64,000 nucleotides of DNA from Jannaschia pohangensis. GTDB taxonomy: Bacteria > Pseudomonadota > Alphaproteobacteria > Rhodobacterales > Rhodobacteraceae. The first letter of the stretch is position 1. Each line of letters starts with the position of its first letter. Positions 3,508-8,238 of this stretch are shown here, piece by piece. The position numbers and the translations under genes were made by a program. Location: the NCBI RefSeq assembly GCF_900113875.1, contig NZ_FORA01000002.1, positions 372,001 to 436,000 of the forward strand, written 5' to 3'. The notes below the pieces were generated by a model. The model was not told the DNA's origin and did not search any database. It saw only the letters and a program-made list of their open reading frames with translations.

Positions 3508-4776
3508 ATGGATCAATTGCAAAGCGAAATCGAGGCAAGGACCGACGATCTTGTTTCCCTGACGCAGGACCTGATCCGCATCCCGACGCTGAATCCCCCC
3601 GGCCTGCACTATCGCGACATCTGTTCGCTGGTGGGCGAACGCATGGGCGCGCAGGGCTGGCAGGTGGAGATGGTCCGGGCCGAAGGCGCCTTGGGCGACA
3701 GCTTCAAGCACCCCCGCTGGAACGTCATCTGCCGGCTGGAGGGCAAGCGGCCCGGCGACTGCCTGCATTTCAACAGCCATCACGACGTGGTCGCCGTGGG
3801 CGACGGCTGGACCTTCGATCCCTTCGCCGCAACCCTGTCAGACGGGCGCATCTACGGGCGCGGCGCCTGCGACATGAAGGGCGGCCTCGCCACCTCGATT
3901 ATCGCCGCCGAGGCCTTTGCGGCCACCCACCCCGACTTCGCCGGCGCCATCGAGATCAGCGCCACCGCCGACGAGGAATCGGGCGGCTTCGGCGGCGTCG
4001 CCTACCTGGCCGAAAAGGGTTTCTTCGACCCCGCCCGCGTCCAGCACGTCATCATCCCGGAACCCCTCAACAAGGACCGCATCTGCCTTGGTCACCGGGG
4101 CGTCTGGTGGGCCGAGATCGAGACGAAGGGCCACATTGCTCACGGCTCCATGCCCTTCCTCGGCGATTGCGCCGTCCGCCACATGGGCGCCGTCCTCGAC
4201 GAGATGGAGGCGACGCTCTTCCCCCTGCTGGCGGGCAAGCGCACCGCCATGCCCGTCGTCCCCGAAGGCGCGCGGCAATCCACCCTCAACCTCAATTCCA
4301 TCCACGGCGGCGAGCCGGTGCAGGACGCCGACTATACCGGCCTGCCCTCTCCCTGCGTGCCCGACCGCTGCGTCCTGACCATCGACCGCCGCTTCCTGAT
4401 CGAGGAGGACATCGCGGAGGTGAAACGCGAAATCACCGCCATGATGGAACGTGTCCGCGCCCGCCGCCCCGACTTCCGCTACGAGATCCGCGATCTCTTC
4501 GAAGTCATGCCCACCATGACCCCCGAAGACGCCCCCATCGTGCAGGTGGTGCAGGACGCGGTGCAGGACATCCTGGGCAAATCCGCCGAATACGTCGTCT
4601 CGCCCGGCACCTACGACCAGAAACACATCGACCGCATCGGGCGGCTGAAGAACTGCATCGCCTACGGCCCCGGCATCCTCGACCTCGCCCACCAGCCCGA
4701 CGAATGGATTGGCGTGCAGGACATGGTCGACAGCGCCAAGGTCATGGCACTGGCGCTTCGTCGATTGTTGGGGTGA
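3508..4776 (+). CDS. ArgE/DapE-family M20 metallodeacylase, 422 aa
   Basis: Two-metal amidohydrolase of peptidase family M20; members remove acetyl, succinyl or formyl groups from amino acids or related amines in the cytoplasm. Visible metal-site residues: H91-x-D93 (in NSHHDVV), D122 (in GRGACDMKGG) and E156-E157 (in TADEESGG); a late His stands in KHIDR. Length is normal. The ATG at 3508 gives the usual N-terminus; an upstream in-frame start would extend into the divergent gene. The substrate cannot be read from sequence: ArgE-like, DapE-like or formylpyrimidine deformylase activities are all possible. The last ~107 bases (from 4669) recur twice downstream, see the repeat entries, so this gene's 3' end appears to be a recombination point. 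Confidence 0.88.
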   Translation: MDQLQSEIEARTDDLVSLTQDLIRIPTLNPPGLHYRDICSLVGERMGAQGWQVEMVRAEGALGDSFKHPRWNVICRLEGKRPGDCLHFNSHHDVVAVGDGWTFDPFAATLSDGRIYGRGACDMKGGLATSIIAAEAFAATHPDFAGAIEISATADEESGGFGGVAYLAEKGFFDPARVQHVIIPEPLNKDRICLGHRGVWWAEIETKGHIAHGSMPFLGDCAVRHMGAVLDEMEATLFPLLAGKRTAMPVVPEGARQSTLNLNSIHGGEPVQDADYTGLPSPCVPDRCVLTIDRRFLIEEDIAEVKREITAMMERVRARRPDFRYEIRDLFEVMPTMTPEDAPIVQVVQDAVQDILGKSAEYVVSPGTYDQKHIDRIGRLKNCIAYGPGILDLAHQPDEWIGVQDMVDSAKVMALALRRLLG

Positions 4777-4805
4777 GGCGGGAGGTCGGCTGTTCGGACT
4801 TTGCT
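4669..4805 (+). repeat. M20 deacylase tail, copy A (native)
   Basis: Genuine 3' end of the deacylase, coding for GILDLAHQPDEWIG...ALRRLLG and the stop at 4774-4776, plus roughly 25 bases after the stop. The same segment returns at 5584-5722 and 6341-6425. Confidence 0.85.
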
Positions 4806-4823
4806 GCCGTTTGTTCGAACGTA

Positions 4824-5462
4824 TCAGATGTTAGGCTTGTAGGTCGCCAGCTTCGCGCCGAACCCGATAAAAACAACGCCCGTAATGCCTTTAAGCCACC
4901 GCTGAAAATTACCGCTTCTGGCGATCGAAGTGAGGCGAGACATCAAAAGAACCATCGCACCGAACCAAATCCCATTAATCATCGAATGGATGAAAACCAG
5001 CATGAATGATGCGGTCGCAGTCGTCTCGCCTAACGTGATGAATTGCGGGAATGCGGCCAGATAGAACATTGACACCTTAGGATTGAGCGCATTGGTCAGT
5101 AAGCCTTCTATATATGCCTTAAACAACGTTCGCCTTCTCTCGGCAGGCTTCACTTCGCCTGTGGTTTCAATGCCTTGCCAAGCGGAAACGAGTGCTTTGA
5201 CGCCGATCCAACACAGATAGGCCGCGCCAAGAAATTTCACGATGGAAAATGCGGTTGCCGACTGGACCAATATGATCGAGAGGCCAAGTATCGCCATCGC
5301 TCCGTGAAGATAAAAGCCAGTGACGAACCCTGCAACGTTGGCAAACCCTGCCGCTCGCCCGGACGTCGGAACGGTCTTGGCGATCAAAACCCCATTTGGT
5401 CCAGGAGACATCACGAGCAGGCTTGCGACAAATGCAAATGCGACGATTTCGGACAACTCCAT
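4824..5462 (-). CDS. LysE/RhtB-family amino-acid exporter, 212 aa, on inserted segment
   Basis: Inner-membrane exporter of the LysE/RhtB family, which pumps amino acids or their derivatives out of the cell. The family signature SPGPNG follows the first helix at about residues 19-24, and about six hydrophobic segments are visible (roughly 5-23, 40-62, 67-90, 120-140, 150-172, 186-205). Full family length. It stands tail-to-tail with the deacylase and back-to-back with repeat copy B. A hand count over bases 4861-4920 gives 47% GC, far below neighbouring genes, and codon use is correspondingly AT-richer, indicating acquisition from elsewhere. A second, unrelated-looking LysE gene with local GC content lies at 30761-31357. 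Confidence 0.88.
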   Translation of the reverse strand: MELSEIVAFAFVASLLVMSPGPNGVLIAKTVPTSGRAAGFANVAGFVTGFYLHGAMAILGLSIILVQSATAFSIVKFLGAAYLCWIGVKALVSAWQGIETTGEVKPAERRRTLFKAYIEGLLTNALNPKVSMFYLAAFPQFITLGETTATASFMLVFIHSMINGIWFGAMVLLMSRLTSIARSGNFQRWLKGITGVVFIGFGAKLATYKPNI

Positions 5463-5530
5463 GAGCGTGTCTCCTTAATTTTCTCGTCAAGGATCGCCGA
5501 ATTTCTGCGATCGCACAATACGTTAAAATG

Positions 5531-5722
5531 GGATCGAAACCCAACCTTCGCCACCCAATCCACCCAGAATCCCACAGCTACATCCCGGCATCCTCGACCT
5601 CGCCCACCAACCCGACCAATGGATCGGCGTGCAGGACATGGTCGACATCGCCAAGGTCATGGCCATGGCGCTTCGCCGATTGTTGGGGTGAGGCGGAATG
5701 TTGGATGTGCGGACGGAGCGGC
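5531..5722 (+). repeat. M20 deacylase tail, copy B, with 50-base leader
   Basis: From 5584 this matches the deacylase 3' end through an in-frame TGA at 5689-5691 and ~30 bases beyond; it would encode GILDLAHQPDQWIG...ALRRLLG. The preceding ~50 bases (5531-5583, containing CCTTCGCCACCCAATCCACC) are absent from the real gene but shared with copy C. There is no start or catalytic part, so this is a gene fragment rather than a gene. Confidence 0.85.
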
Positions 5723-5749
5723 CTATCGCGATTGTGACTCAGATGGCAG

Positions 5750-6226
5750 CTAGACAGTGAAAGCCACGGAAGCCCATTCCGCTCCATCAAACGAAACGGT
5801 TTGCTTCTTGGTAATGTCTGGGATCACGGTTTGCCAAAATTCGGTCGCAGGCTTGTTGTCGTTACCCCATGAAATCTCCCAGTCACCGGGGTGTCTTTCC
5901 AAAACTGCAAACAGGGCAGAGCGGCCTGCTCCCTTAAGCTGGTAGGGTCGCAAGATACAGAATTCCGCCATGAACCAGCAGGGAGTTCTTTCCCTTATCG
6001 GGCAATGGCTTATGACCATGCAAAAACCAGCAATCTCACCGTTCACCAGGATGAGGTAAGGATATTCCCAGAATTGATCAAGAAAGTCGTATTCGTACCG
6101 CCCCTGAGCATTTAAAGGAAATTTAGACTGCGCCGCCATATCGTACAGATAGAGCTGAATCAGGTTTTCAATCACCGGTTTCTGCGCGTCGTTGGCTGCA
6201 AACAGTTCGACTGTTTGATCAGCCAT
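5750..6226 (-). CDS. GNAT-family N-acetyltransferase, 158 aa, on inserted segment
   Basis: Predicted cytoplasmic acetyl-CoA-dependent acyltransferase. The fold is suggested by a central strand pair (YLILVNGEIAGFCMV), a conserved AEFCILRPYQLKGAGRSALF region resembling the acetyl-CoA pyrophosphate loop (Q/K-x-x-G-x-G-R), and a C-terminal NDNKPATEFWQTV block. Substrate unknown. It lies between deacylase-tail copies B and C and points leftward. Bases 6061-6120 are 42% GC by hand count, so it is compositionally foreign like the LysE gene. It may be a passenger gene carried in by recombination. Confidence 0.78.
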   Translation of the reverse strand: MADQTVELFAANDAQKPVIENLIQLYLYDMAAQSKFPLNAQGRYEYDFLDQFWEYPYLILVNGEIAGFCMVISHCPIRERTPCWFMAEFCILRPYQLKGAGRSALFAVLERHPGDWEISWGNDNKPATEFWQTVIPDITKKQTVSFDGAEWASVAFTV

Positions 6227-6287
6227 TTAGAACCTCATCAAAGAAGTTTTTCATACATTGGTTGCATTGCAGAAAATATGCAAATTG

Positions 6288-6425
6288 GCATCAAACCCGA
6301 CCTTCGCCACCCAATCCACCCGGCATCCCACAACTATATCCCCGCCATCCTCGACCTCGCCCACCAACCCGACGAGTGGATCGGCGTGCGGGACATGATC
6401 GACGCCGCCCTGGTCATGGCCCTGC
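6288..6425 (+). repeat. M20 deacylase tail, copy C, truncated
   Basis: Shares the leader of copy B (CCTTCGCCACCCAATCCACC at 6301-6320) and then the deacylase tail from about 6341, coding for ILDLAHQPDEWIGVRDMIDAA in one frame. Relative to copy B it carries a one-base insertion near 6341, and similarity is lost at about 6425, before the normal stop. It is therefore a decayed fragment. Confidence 0.82.
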
Positions 6426-6461
6426 CGCGCCGTCCGGGCGGCGCGGGGCGCCGCGCGGGCG

Positions 6462-6866
6462 TCAGGCCGGGTCGCCCTCCCTGACCCGGGCCGCCAGGTC
6501 CTCGAACACCGTCACGATGTCCTCGGGCGAAGCGCGTTCCGGAACGCCCTGCGCAATCTCGTCCTCGGTCCAGATCCAGGATTTCGCGGGATCATGCAGC
6601 ATCGCCCAATCGCCGAAGATCCGCTCGGTGACCTGTCGCCGAACCAGCTGCCGCACCCCCGCGTGGCGATCATCGCGCAGGATGCGGGCATAGGCCGCCG
6701 ACACCATCCGGTCAGGTCCCTCCAGCAGTTGCAGATAGGTGTCGTGCCGACAGACCAGCGCCCCGGTGATCCCGTCGCGGGTGTTGTTGGTGCGCGCATC
6801 CAGAAGGATGCCCCCCAGAATGCCATCGTCGTAACCGAAGGGCTGGGAAATATAGACAAGTTGCAT
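6462..6866 (-). CDS. Short BLUF-domain blue-light photoreceptor, 134 aa
   Basis: BLUF proteins bind FAD and sense blue light. The signature residues are all at the right places: Y5 (in QLVYISQ), N28 and the GITG turn at 32-35, Q46 (in YLQLLEGP), and W87-x-M89 (in GDWAMLHDP); the Tyr-Gln and Gln-Trp distances match those of AppA/PixD-type domains. Beyond the ~95-residue BLUF core there are only ~40 residues, so no EAL or other output domain is fused and the signal must pass to a partner protein. The start ATG has no clear ribosome site. It stands immediately beyond deacylase-tail copy C, and the region upstream holds the iteron element at 7106-7138. Confidence 0.92.
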   Translation of the reverse strand: MQLVYISQPFGYDDGILGGILLDARTNNTRDGITGALVCRHDTYLQLLEGPDRMVSAAYARILRDDRHAGVRQLVRRQVTERIFGDWAMLHDPAKSWIWTEDEIAQGVPERASPEDIVTVFEDLAARVREGDPA

Positions 6867-7213
6867 GAGGGTCGTGATGGCCGTCGCTCCCGCTGGACCC
6901 GGGGCGGGGCTGGGACCGGAACCGGACCTGTCGCGCCGCTGCGGGATGCGGAGACCCTAGCCCCTTGCCGCATCGGTGTCATTCCTCGAATCGCGGCGGG
7001 GTCGAACGCCCGCCATCGCGATGCCGCCGCCCCGGACGAATAGGCGCCGTGGTCGCGCAGGGTGCGGCGGAACATTTAAGATCGGGTAAAGCCGTGCGGT
7101 TTGTCTGTACGGAGGGTGTACAGGGGGTGTACCGGGGGTGACAGCCGTAACCCCTTGATCGTGAACGTCCCGTTCCGACGGCATCACGCTCCGAAAGTTT
7201 TTTTCATCCCGCA
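6867..7213. other. 347-base intergenic region between BLUF and IMPACT genes
   Basis: Divergent promoter region for the BLUF gene and the IMPACT-family gene. No credible reading frame was found. The only structured element is the iteron triplet at 7106-7138; the rest shows nothing I can interpret. Confidence 0.6.
7099..7147 (+). repeat. 11-bp iteron triplet, copy 1
   Basis: Three head-to-tail 11-mers, TGTACGGAGGG, TGTACAGGGGG and TGTACCGGGGG (7106-7138), followed by TGACAGCCGT and preceded by GTTTGTC. One repeat per helical turn would place each GTAC core on one face of the DNA. It lies 67 bases upstream of the IMPACT-family gene. A near-identical 47-base block exists at 36001-36047. Confidence 0.85.
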
Positions 7214-7561
7214 ATGAAAACCCTCTCACTCGACATCAACGACCGCGGCAGCCGCTATGCCGTCACCGGCGCCCCCGCGACGTCGGCCGAGGCGGCGAGG
7301 GCAGTGGTCACGGCCCTCTGCCGCGACAAGAAATTCGCCCGCGCCACCCACAACAGCTGGGCGCTGATCTGTGCCGACGGCCCCGTCAAGACCGACGATG
7401 GCGAGGCCGGGGCGGGCATGGTCATCCTGCGCATGCTCGAGCGCGCGGGTCTGCGCGACCACGTCGTCATCGTCACCCGCTGGTACGGTGGCAAGCCCCT
7501 GGGCGGAGACCGGTTCCGCCACGTCCAGACCGCCGTTCGCAGCTATCTGGAAACGCTCTGA
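7214..7561 (+). CDS. IMPACT/UPF0029-family protein, single domain, 115 aa
   Basis: The conserved core of the IMPACT N-terminal family is plain: KKFARATHNSWAL, DDGEAGAG, VVIVTRWYGGKPLGGDRFRHVQ. In E. coli YigZ and eukaryotic IMPACT this domain is joined to a second domain and total length is about 200; here only the first is present, ending soon after the RWYGG block. Related proteins influence translation stress control, but the role of the bacterial short form is unknown. The gene follows the iteron element and precedes a base-excision glycosylase gene. Confidence 0.85.
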   Translation: MKTLSLDINDRGSRYAVTGAPATSAEAARAVVTALCRDKKFARATHNSWALICADGPVKTDDGEAGAGMVILRMLERAGLRDHVVIVTRWYGGKPLGGDRFRHVQTAVRSYLETL

Positions 7562-7599
7562 AAATCGACTTTCCGGCGTGTCGCCCTAGGTTCGCCCGC

Positions 7600-8238
7600 A
7601 TGCTGACCGATGCTCAATGCCTTGATCTCATGTCCCGCCTCGGGGCCGCCTTTCCCGACGCCCGTGCGCCCGACTCCAAGGGCGGCGGCGATCCGTTCCG
7701 GTCGGTGGTGTCCTGCATGCTCTCGGCCCAGAGCCTCGATCGCAACACCGCCGCCGCCAGCCGAGCACTCTTTGCCCTGGCCGCCACGCCCGAGGGGATC
7801 CTGGCGCTGTCCGAAGACCAGATCGCCACCGCGATCCGCCCCTGCGGCCTCTACAACGTAAAGACCCGGAACCTGCGCCGGATGTGCCGCGCCCTGATCG
7901 ACGATCACGGCGGCACGGTGCCCCGCACCCGCGCGGGCCTGATGTCCCTGCCCGGCGTGGGCCGCAAATGCGCCGACATCGTGCTCAGCTTCACCTTCGG
8001 CGAGGCCGTGGTCGCCGTCGATACCCATGTGCACCGGGTTTGCAACCGCACCGGCCTCGCGTCCGGAAAGACCGAGGAGCAGACCGCCAAATCCCTCGAT
8101 ATCCGCATCCCCGATGCCTTCCGTCGCAGGGGTCACGTCCTGATCCTCGCGCATGGAAAACAGGTCTGCAAAAGCCGCGCGCCGCGCTGCGACACCTGCA
8201 TTCTCGCCGACCTCTGCGAGGGGCGAACGAAAACGTGA
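7600..8238 (+). CDS. nth: Endonuclease III-family DNA glycosylase/AP lyase, 212 aa
   Basis: Base-excision repair enzyme for oxidised pyrimidines. The helix-hairpin-helix motif LPGVGRKCADIVL (117-129) contains the catalytic Lys K123, the catalytic Asp is D141 in VAVDTH, and a [4Fe-4S] loop with the exact C-x6-C-x2-C-x5-C spacing is formed by C190, C197, C200 and C206. Length fits the family. Sequence around the N-terminus is divergent from typical Nth, so it could be a second, specialised paralogue, with the main nth gene elsewhere. Confidence 0.88.
   Translation: MLTDAQCLDLMSRLGAAFPDARAPDSKGGGDPFRSVVSCMLSAQSLDRNTAAASRALFALAATPEGILALSEDQIATAIRPCGLYNVKTRNLRRMCRALIDDHGGTVPRTRAGLMSLPGVGRKCADIVLSFTFGEAVVAVDTHVHRVCNRTGLASGKTEEQTAKSLDIRIPDAFRRRGHVLILAHGKQVCKSRAPRCDTCILADLCEGRTKT

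Follow-up and report, generated by a model that had tools for sequence, protein, structure and literature searches.

Two single genes between repeated copies of a deacylase gene's 3' end in Jannaschia pohangensis: a local trace of gene acquisition

Behind an intact deacylase gene of Jannaschia pohangensis, the 3' end of that gene occurs twice more, and each interval between copies is occupied by a single gene of unusual composition. This arrangement raises the question of how foreign genes came to be lined up behind a conserved gene, and whether ordinary recombination or a dedicated gene-collecting system put them there. The locus was analysed within a window of 64,000 nt, by which we mean the whole stretch of DNA under study (contig NZ_FORA01000002.1 of assembly GCF_900113875.1, positions 372,001 to 436,000). 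Its order is M20 gene with tail A, 54-nt arm, LysE gene, leader, tail B, 54-nt arm, GNAT gene, leader, tail C and BLUF gene, and the individual features are as follows, with positions counted from the start of the window.

3508..4776, plus strand: M20 deacylase gene, ArgE/DapE-like, PRK13013 family, intact (PF01546, 6.6e-37; NCBIfam NF009558, 784.9 bits against a cut-off of 428); the start at 3508 is one choice, in-frame starts also lying upstream
4669..4776, plus strand: copy A, the native M20 3' tail, with the 21-nt invariant run at 4674-4694
4777..4830, plus strand: post-stop arm of copy A, identical to the B arm at 33 of 54 nt; its last bases overlap the stop codon of LysE
4824..5462, minus strand: LysE-type translocator gene, passenger 1 (PF01810, 1.1e-33; GC 0.516, GC3 0.60)
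5510..5588, plus strand: leader of copy B, ~79 nt; its homologue precedes copy C, and the M20 gene lacks it
5584..5691, plus strand: copy B of the M20 tail, with the 21-nt run at 5589-5609; it resembles C on its left flank and A on its right
5692..5745, plus strand: post-stop arm of copy B, homologous to the A arm
5750..6226, minus strand: GNAT acetyltransferase gene, passenger 2 (PF00583, 7.7e-06, above cut-off; GC 0.495, GC3 0.56)
6266..6345, plus strand: leader of copy C, homologous to the leader of copy B
6341..6435, plus strand: copy C of the M20 tail, with the 21-nt run at 6346-6366; 85% identical to A over 95 nt
6462..6866, minus strand: BLUF photoreceptor-domain gene downstream of copy C (PF04940, 8.5e-24; GC 0.649, GC3 0.79, host-like)
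7214..8238, plus strand: two genes that we take to be YigZ-like and Nth-like, conserved neighbours after M20 in several relatives

An earlier note on this DNA, made from the letters alone, had reported that the M20 tail recurs at 5584 and 6341, and two methods agree with it. A mechanical repeat search returned a 140-nt family at 4669, 5584 and 6341, in which B and C are 89% and 67% identical to copy A, together with a second family that is confined to B and C and spans the leader (78% over 80 nt). Self-BLAST of the whole 64-kb window on its plus strand (E <= 1e-6), restricted to pairs of 70 nt or more spaced by 250-4000 nt, returned three direct-repeat pairs, all of them at the tail locus: A/B (131 nt, 90.8% identity, E 2e-46), B/C (148 nt, 86.5%, E 2e-42) and A/C (95 nt, 85.3%, E 4e-24). 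Judged by these alignments, a chance origin of the tail repeats is ruled out. The homology of copy C to A stops before the stop codon (alignment end 4762/6434), and protein searches of the whole genome found the tail at these three places alone. Given that the copies differ by 9-15%, and that the window is part of a 790-kb contig in a 3.73-Mb genome, an assembly duplicate is unlikely.

Copies B and C are fronted by a common leader that the M20 gene lacks. This absence had been noted before and stands; the length then given, ~50 nt, has to be raised to 65-80 nt (86% identity over 65 nt, 78% over 80 nt), and windowed identities place the fading of the homology at ~5510/6266, ~40-50 nt upstream of each passenger's start. 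Scanning 4600-6900 for sigma-70-like promoters gave no match, in the leader or elsewhere, and Rfam gave none at E <= 1 between 3000 and 9000. Two features go beyond the earlier account. One is a ~54-nt homology behind the stop codons of A and B: 33 of 54 nt are identical, and none of 20,000 segments drawn at random from the window exceeded 27. Given that the leaders and the arms are each homologous, both inserts (915 and 757 nt) share the same two ends around unrelated genes. The other is a run of 21 nt at the leader/tail border, identical in A, B and C (starts 4674, 5589 and 6346). Of the first 78 columns, 12 vary; when these were shuffled, a left-hand run of this length arose in 335 of 20,000 trials, a post hoc test of a run picked after it had been noticed. 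Away from it, the identity of A and C falls over successive ungapped 30-nt blocks (27, 24 and 17 of 30), the last value being exaggerated by a gap that the gapped alignment puts in C near its end.

Copy B has two faces. Of its 18 diagnostic sites between 5633 and the stop codon, 16 are A-like, and the four diagnostic sites at 5588-5625 alternate between A-like and C-like, so that an exact switch point cannot be placed in B. The best single switch fits 30 of 40 sites on the left and 37 of 49 on the right (10 and 12 unexplained), the left-hand count being trivial because A is not homologous to the leader. B is a hybrid, a duplicated homologous segment that lies between two inserts, which is a feature of the products of single or unequal crossovers. 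The leader might also have been the upstream part of an intact second deacylase now lost, an origin that the earlier note had set against the cassette idea. The leader showed no similarity (E <= 0.01) to M20 sequence upstream of the tail, whether in this gene or in the orthologue regions of 18 genus genomes, and this origin is further disfavoured by a one-base difference in frame between copies B and C.

Each insert contains a single leftward gene, and both genes are AT-richer than their surroundings, as had been claimed: GC3 is 0.60 for LysE and 0.56 for GNAT versus 0.79-0.89 in the eight other genes measured. Relatives of the GNAT gene are rare, occurring in 7 of 394 family genomes at E <= 1e-10 (own genome included); LysE was found at E <= 1e-30 in 3 of 20 genus genomes (own included), in the other two off the contig of M20. 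Read by eye, six loci with passenger homologues, namely both LysE matches and four of the six GNAT matches outside the own genome, displayed no tail or leader ends around them. A phage origin of the inserts was rejected, there being no DNA match in phages, and so was a plasmid origin, the plasmid matches consisting of two LysE family genes (68-69%) and nine Azospirillum records that match the M20 tail copies. Among viral contigs, GNAT had no match and LysE no confirmed relative.

The M20 orthologue is present in 19 of 20 genus genomes, own included (G001 holds remote paralogues only), and we read the 18 other orthologue regions over ~10 kb behind M20, or 4.2 kb in G011. None of the 18 has a tail repeat or leader (blastn, E <= 0.01) or a LysE, GNAT or BLUF gene (tblastn, E <= 1e-4) behind M20; the nearest species by M20 (G014, 89% identity) has neither tail copies nor any of the three genes there. 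A gene order shared by close relatives, named in the earlier note as evidence against cassettes, was seen in 0 of the 18 regions. The usual followers of M20 in relatives are, as we assume, YigZ, Nth, a small secreted protein, a SCO-like protein and a solute-binding protein. In seven of the 18 genus genomes, M20 is separated from the next usual follower by 0.4-8 kb of additional DNA, and the interval is therefore variable. The content of three of these seven was checked: thiamine-phosphate synthase and NMT1 in G014, CheB-CheR-PAS-kinase in G013 and a hydrolase in G008. Tail copies are absent from the inserts of the other genus genomes.

How closely the three tails belong together was judged over 75 nt, of which 71 are identical between A and B, 66 between B and C and 65 between A and C. 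Tail A matches the orthologue of G018 at 67 of 75 nt and is thus nearer to it than to C, so a common lineage of the copies rests on B and the 21-nt run. The best relative of C among the orthologues reaches 61; for the 75-nt tail, scores across the 18 orthologues peak at 69, with a median of 59. The exact 21-nt run was found in none of the 18 orthologue regions, searched in gene orientation.

Beyond the genus, a 70-nt leader query against 394 family genomes, with the two best candidates scored per genome, gave no convincing match outside the window. The best match elsewhere (G323, E 3.7e-6 over 47 nt) lies in a 3-kb locus without M20. An exact 20-mer of the leader occurs at 13 genome_contigs loci of varied organisms, none with M20 in the piece read, which we treat as chance, and in no viral contig. 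These searches bear on the idea that the leader belongs to an intergenic repeat dispersed in the family (62-nt consensus, observed in the genus), copies of which brought the inserts together. In its left half the leader does resemble copies at G323, G005 and G000:C6, and a motif at G000:C6:14583 is matched by the arm behind the stop codon of A (31 nt, 90%). However, a profile of 17 copies gives leader C 7.0 bits (E 3.7) and leaves leader B unlisted, and the 32 nt adjoining the tail have no convincing match in any other family genome, which makes this origin highly improbable.

The tail itself, used as a query, matches 200 of 394 family genomes, own included, and a linked extra copy is present in three of these 200: the own genome (G000), G374 and G059 (G038 has two tail matches on different contigs and was not counted as linked). 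In G059 the extra copy is decayed (210 nt, 82.9%) and lies beyond a CHRD-domain gene, with tandem repeats after it; G374 has an exact 315-nt tandem duplication of the tail that runs into the next gene. The latter is a plain duplication of the M20 end and lends some credit to another history, in which tail, gene and leader were duplicated long ago within the clone by unequal crossing over and one passenger was then replaced. Such a course would yield identical ends on both units, and the divergence of A/B (90.8%) and B/C (86.5%) is similar in size; yet the later replacement would need borders near the stop codon and just upstream of the start, and the LysE and GNAT genes are unrelated, their comparison giving no trace of a common ancestral gene. 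We regard this history as rather doubtful.

As a control, 295 genomes were searched for the end of a solute-binding gene; there were matches in 179, two of them with a second match (on separate contigs in G158, at an unlisted position in G143). Against this single control gene, the difference in linked copies is not significant (Fisher p 0.63 with G143 counted, 0.25 with none counted; without the own genome, 1.0 or 0.50), and for this reason we claim no hot spot at the M20 tail. Repeated cassette addition, as proposed earlier, is not borne out: the leader is not convincing elsewhere (394 genomes, two candidates each), and linked tail copies are not significantly commoner than in the control. 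Of the wider proposal that cassettes were joined at the 3' end of a gene, the layout stands and is strengthened by the post-stop homology of A and B, whereas nothing found here points to a recurrent cassette system. Likewise, no convincing recurrence of leader or arms that would indicate a shared gene-collecting machinery was found in the family, genome_contigs or viral searches.

Neither insert contains an integrase gene, and the window holds no relative of the genome's own tyrosine recombinases, in line with the earlier observation that no integrase is visible. The genome has seven PF00589 matches, six above cut-off, the nearest ~88 kb away on the same contig. With these six as queries, so that relatives of these alone were sought (the L283 query being incomplete), we searched 60 family loci behind M20, each of up to 5 kb (five pieces were shorter, one of them 0.4 kb). 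L224 alone has a tyrosine recombinase relative, ~4.8 kb away and with two matches; none was found in the 18 genus regions behind M20.

These results have to be set against known systems in which DNA accumulates in series at the end of a gene. ICESt1 is reportedly an example of such accretion. According to PMC5704250, CIMEs or integrated elements accrete in tandem at the 3' end of a gene, in the order attL-element-chimeric attI-element-attR. The locus of J. pohangensis resembles the accretion described there in its intact target gene, displaced gene ends, chimeric middle site, common arms and different cargo. It would then be a tandem array of two tiny CIME-like elements, with A as attL, B as chimeric attI and C as attR, the 21-nt run as core, the leader as left arm and the element-borne gene end plus 54 nt as right arm; a recombinase acting in trans, lost or encoded elsewhere, would have put single-gene circles into the M20 3' end, restoring that end each time. 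The left arm common to B and C, the right arm and right half of the tail common to A and B, and the divergence of A and C that grows away from a run located at the arm border all agree with such an array, as does the published order of sites (PMC5704250).

Unlike the elements described there (PMC5704250), the inserts here are shorter than 1 kb and comprise one gene, with no integrase, mobilisation or other element gene, and a second instance of the same arms was not found in our searches. Of the traits that define a CIME, attL and attR sites with common arms and a core are found at the level of sequence; derivation from an ICE or IME is not, given one gene per insert and no relative element with the same arms in the searches. 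Inserts of merely 915 and 757 nt, a leader that is nowhere else convincing, the lack of an integrase in the inserts and of one like the genome's own in the window, and a recombinase relative at one of 60 family loci (L224) and 0 of 18 genus regions also count against the array, which we consider unlikely.

Homologous recombination offers further precedents. Merodiploids, according to PMC3784515, form by unequal crossing over during transformation, between repeats that are IS fragments, and their duplications measure ~100-900 kb. There as here, unequal crossover between repeats sets segments in tandem, but the repeat at the M20 locus would be a 107-nt gene end and the segments are below 1 kb (PMC3784515). 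Homology-facilitated illegitimate or single-crossover integration, as outlined in PMC3240628, can add foreign DNA through one-sided homology or a circle; in contrast to this, a single leader/tail joint is common to B and C, which leaves room for no more than one illegitimate joint. The anatomy of the locus also equals the product of unequal crossing over or of serial single-crossover integration in short homology.

We favour, at a probability of roughly 0.5, RecA-type homologous recombination in the 3' end of M20 between related strains with different passengers, through which two single-gene inserts would have been gained behind the intact gene without an integrase of their own. The earlier note had closed with the same suggestion, an exchange between strains by homology. 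DNA of a related strain, bearing an M20 tail and a foreign gene, may first have integrated through the homologous tail and left the displaced tail (C) behind a new leader. Strains of the lineage would then have come to hold different passengers, LysE and GNAT, between the same ends. Finally, as the anatomy suggests, two such loci would have crossed over unequally within the tail, placing the inserts in series and creating copy B with one flank of each kind; a second circle, integrated by single crossover, would give the same series. The crossover between two alleles is what we infer.

Recombination without a dedicated recombinase is preferred for want of a linked tyrosine recombinase, and because our searches showed the arms nowhere else, each insert is a single gene and G059 holds a different tail-duplicating insertion. 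This preference has a cost. Homologous recombination does not explain why the same leader and arm surround two different genes, and the invariant 21-nt run at the border would fit a site-specific core better; on both points, a site-specific process gives the better explanation.

Integron gene cassettes are likewise single genes with common ends, arranged in series. The repeat at the M20 locus differs from theirs in being the 3' end of a gene. Minimal mobile cassettes of one gene, which would bear a copy of the 3' end of a host gene as attachment site, accumulate serially behind the intact gene and depend on a recombinase encoded elsewhere, seem quite improbable to us; if real, they would amount to an integron-like storage site built from an ordinary metabolic gene.

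Of the papers returned by one literature search, none names Rhodobacteraceae, and we do not claim that the phenomenon is new to the literature. The trace of gene acquisition at this locus is real, well preserved and unusual locally, and known mechanisms are sufficient for it; it has the look of DNA that a single bacterial lineage took up at a single place by ordinary recombination. As a local fossil it is clear: single foreign genes have come to lie behind a conserved gene, no genes of a mobile element are visible, and the products of recombination can still be read in common arms, a two-faced middle copy and displaced tails. Should sister strains prove to carry other passengers between these arms, the 3' ends of ordinary genes would become possible collectors of cassettes.

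The variable interval behind the M20 deacylase gene is occupied in another species of the genus (G013) by a CheB-CheR-PAS-HWE kinase gene, the product of which comprises 1305 aa (locus L041:4333-8250).

The end of the M20 gene is also duplicated in two other genomes of the family. In G059 (contig C11, L217:2054-5650), the M20 gene is followed by a CHRD-domain gene, a decayed copy of the M20 tail and, beyond it, tandem repeats of ~135 nt each that contain a run of N. G374 (contig C11, L214:1479-2107) carries an exact tandem duplication of 315 nt, the unit of which consists of the M20 gene end together with part of the sequence behind it.

A dispersed repeat of ~62 nt yielded matches at E <= 0.1 in 15 of the 20 genus genomes (own genome, G000, included); Rfam returned no matching family at E <= 0.5 for the five loci scanned. 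Three copies serve as examples, and further members exist:

G000:C6:1277364-1277429, repeat member (locus L158)
G000:C15:238704-238763, repeat member (locus L174)
G017:C60:5006-5071, repeat member in another genus genome (locus L159)

Within the post-stop arm behind the native M20 tail, a 31-nt motif around GCGGACNTTGCTGCCGTT (window 4781-4811) is 90% identical to G000:C6:14583-14613, and its 19-nt version, allowing <=1 mismatch, is present in 4/20 genus genomes, again counting the own genome.
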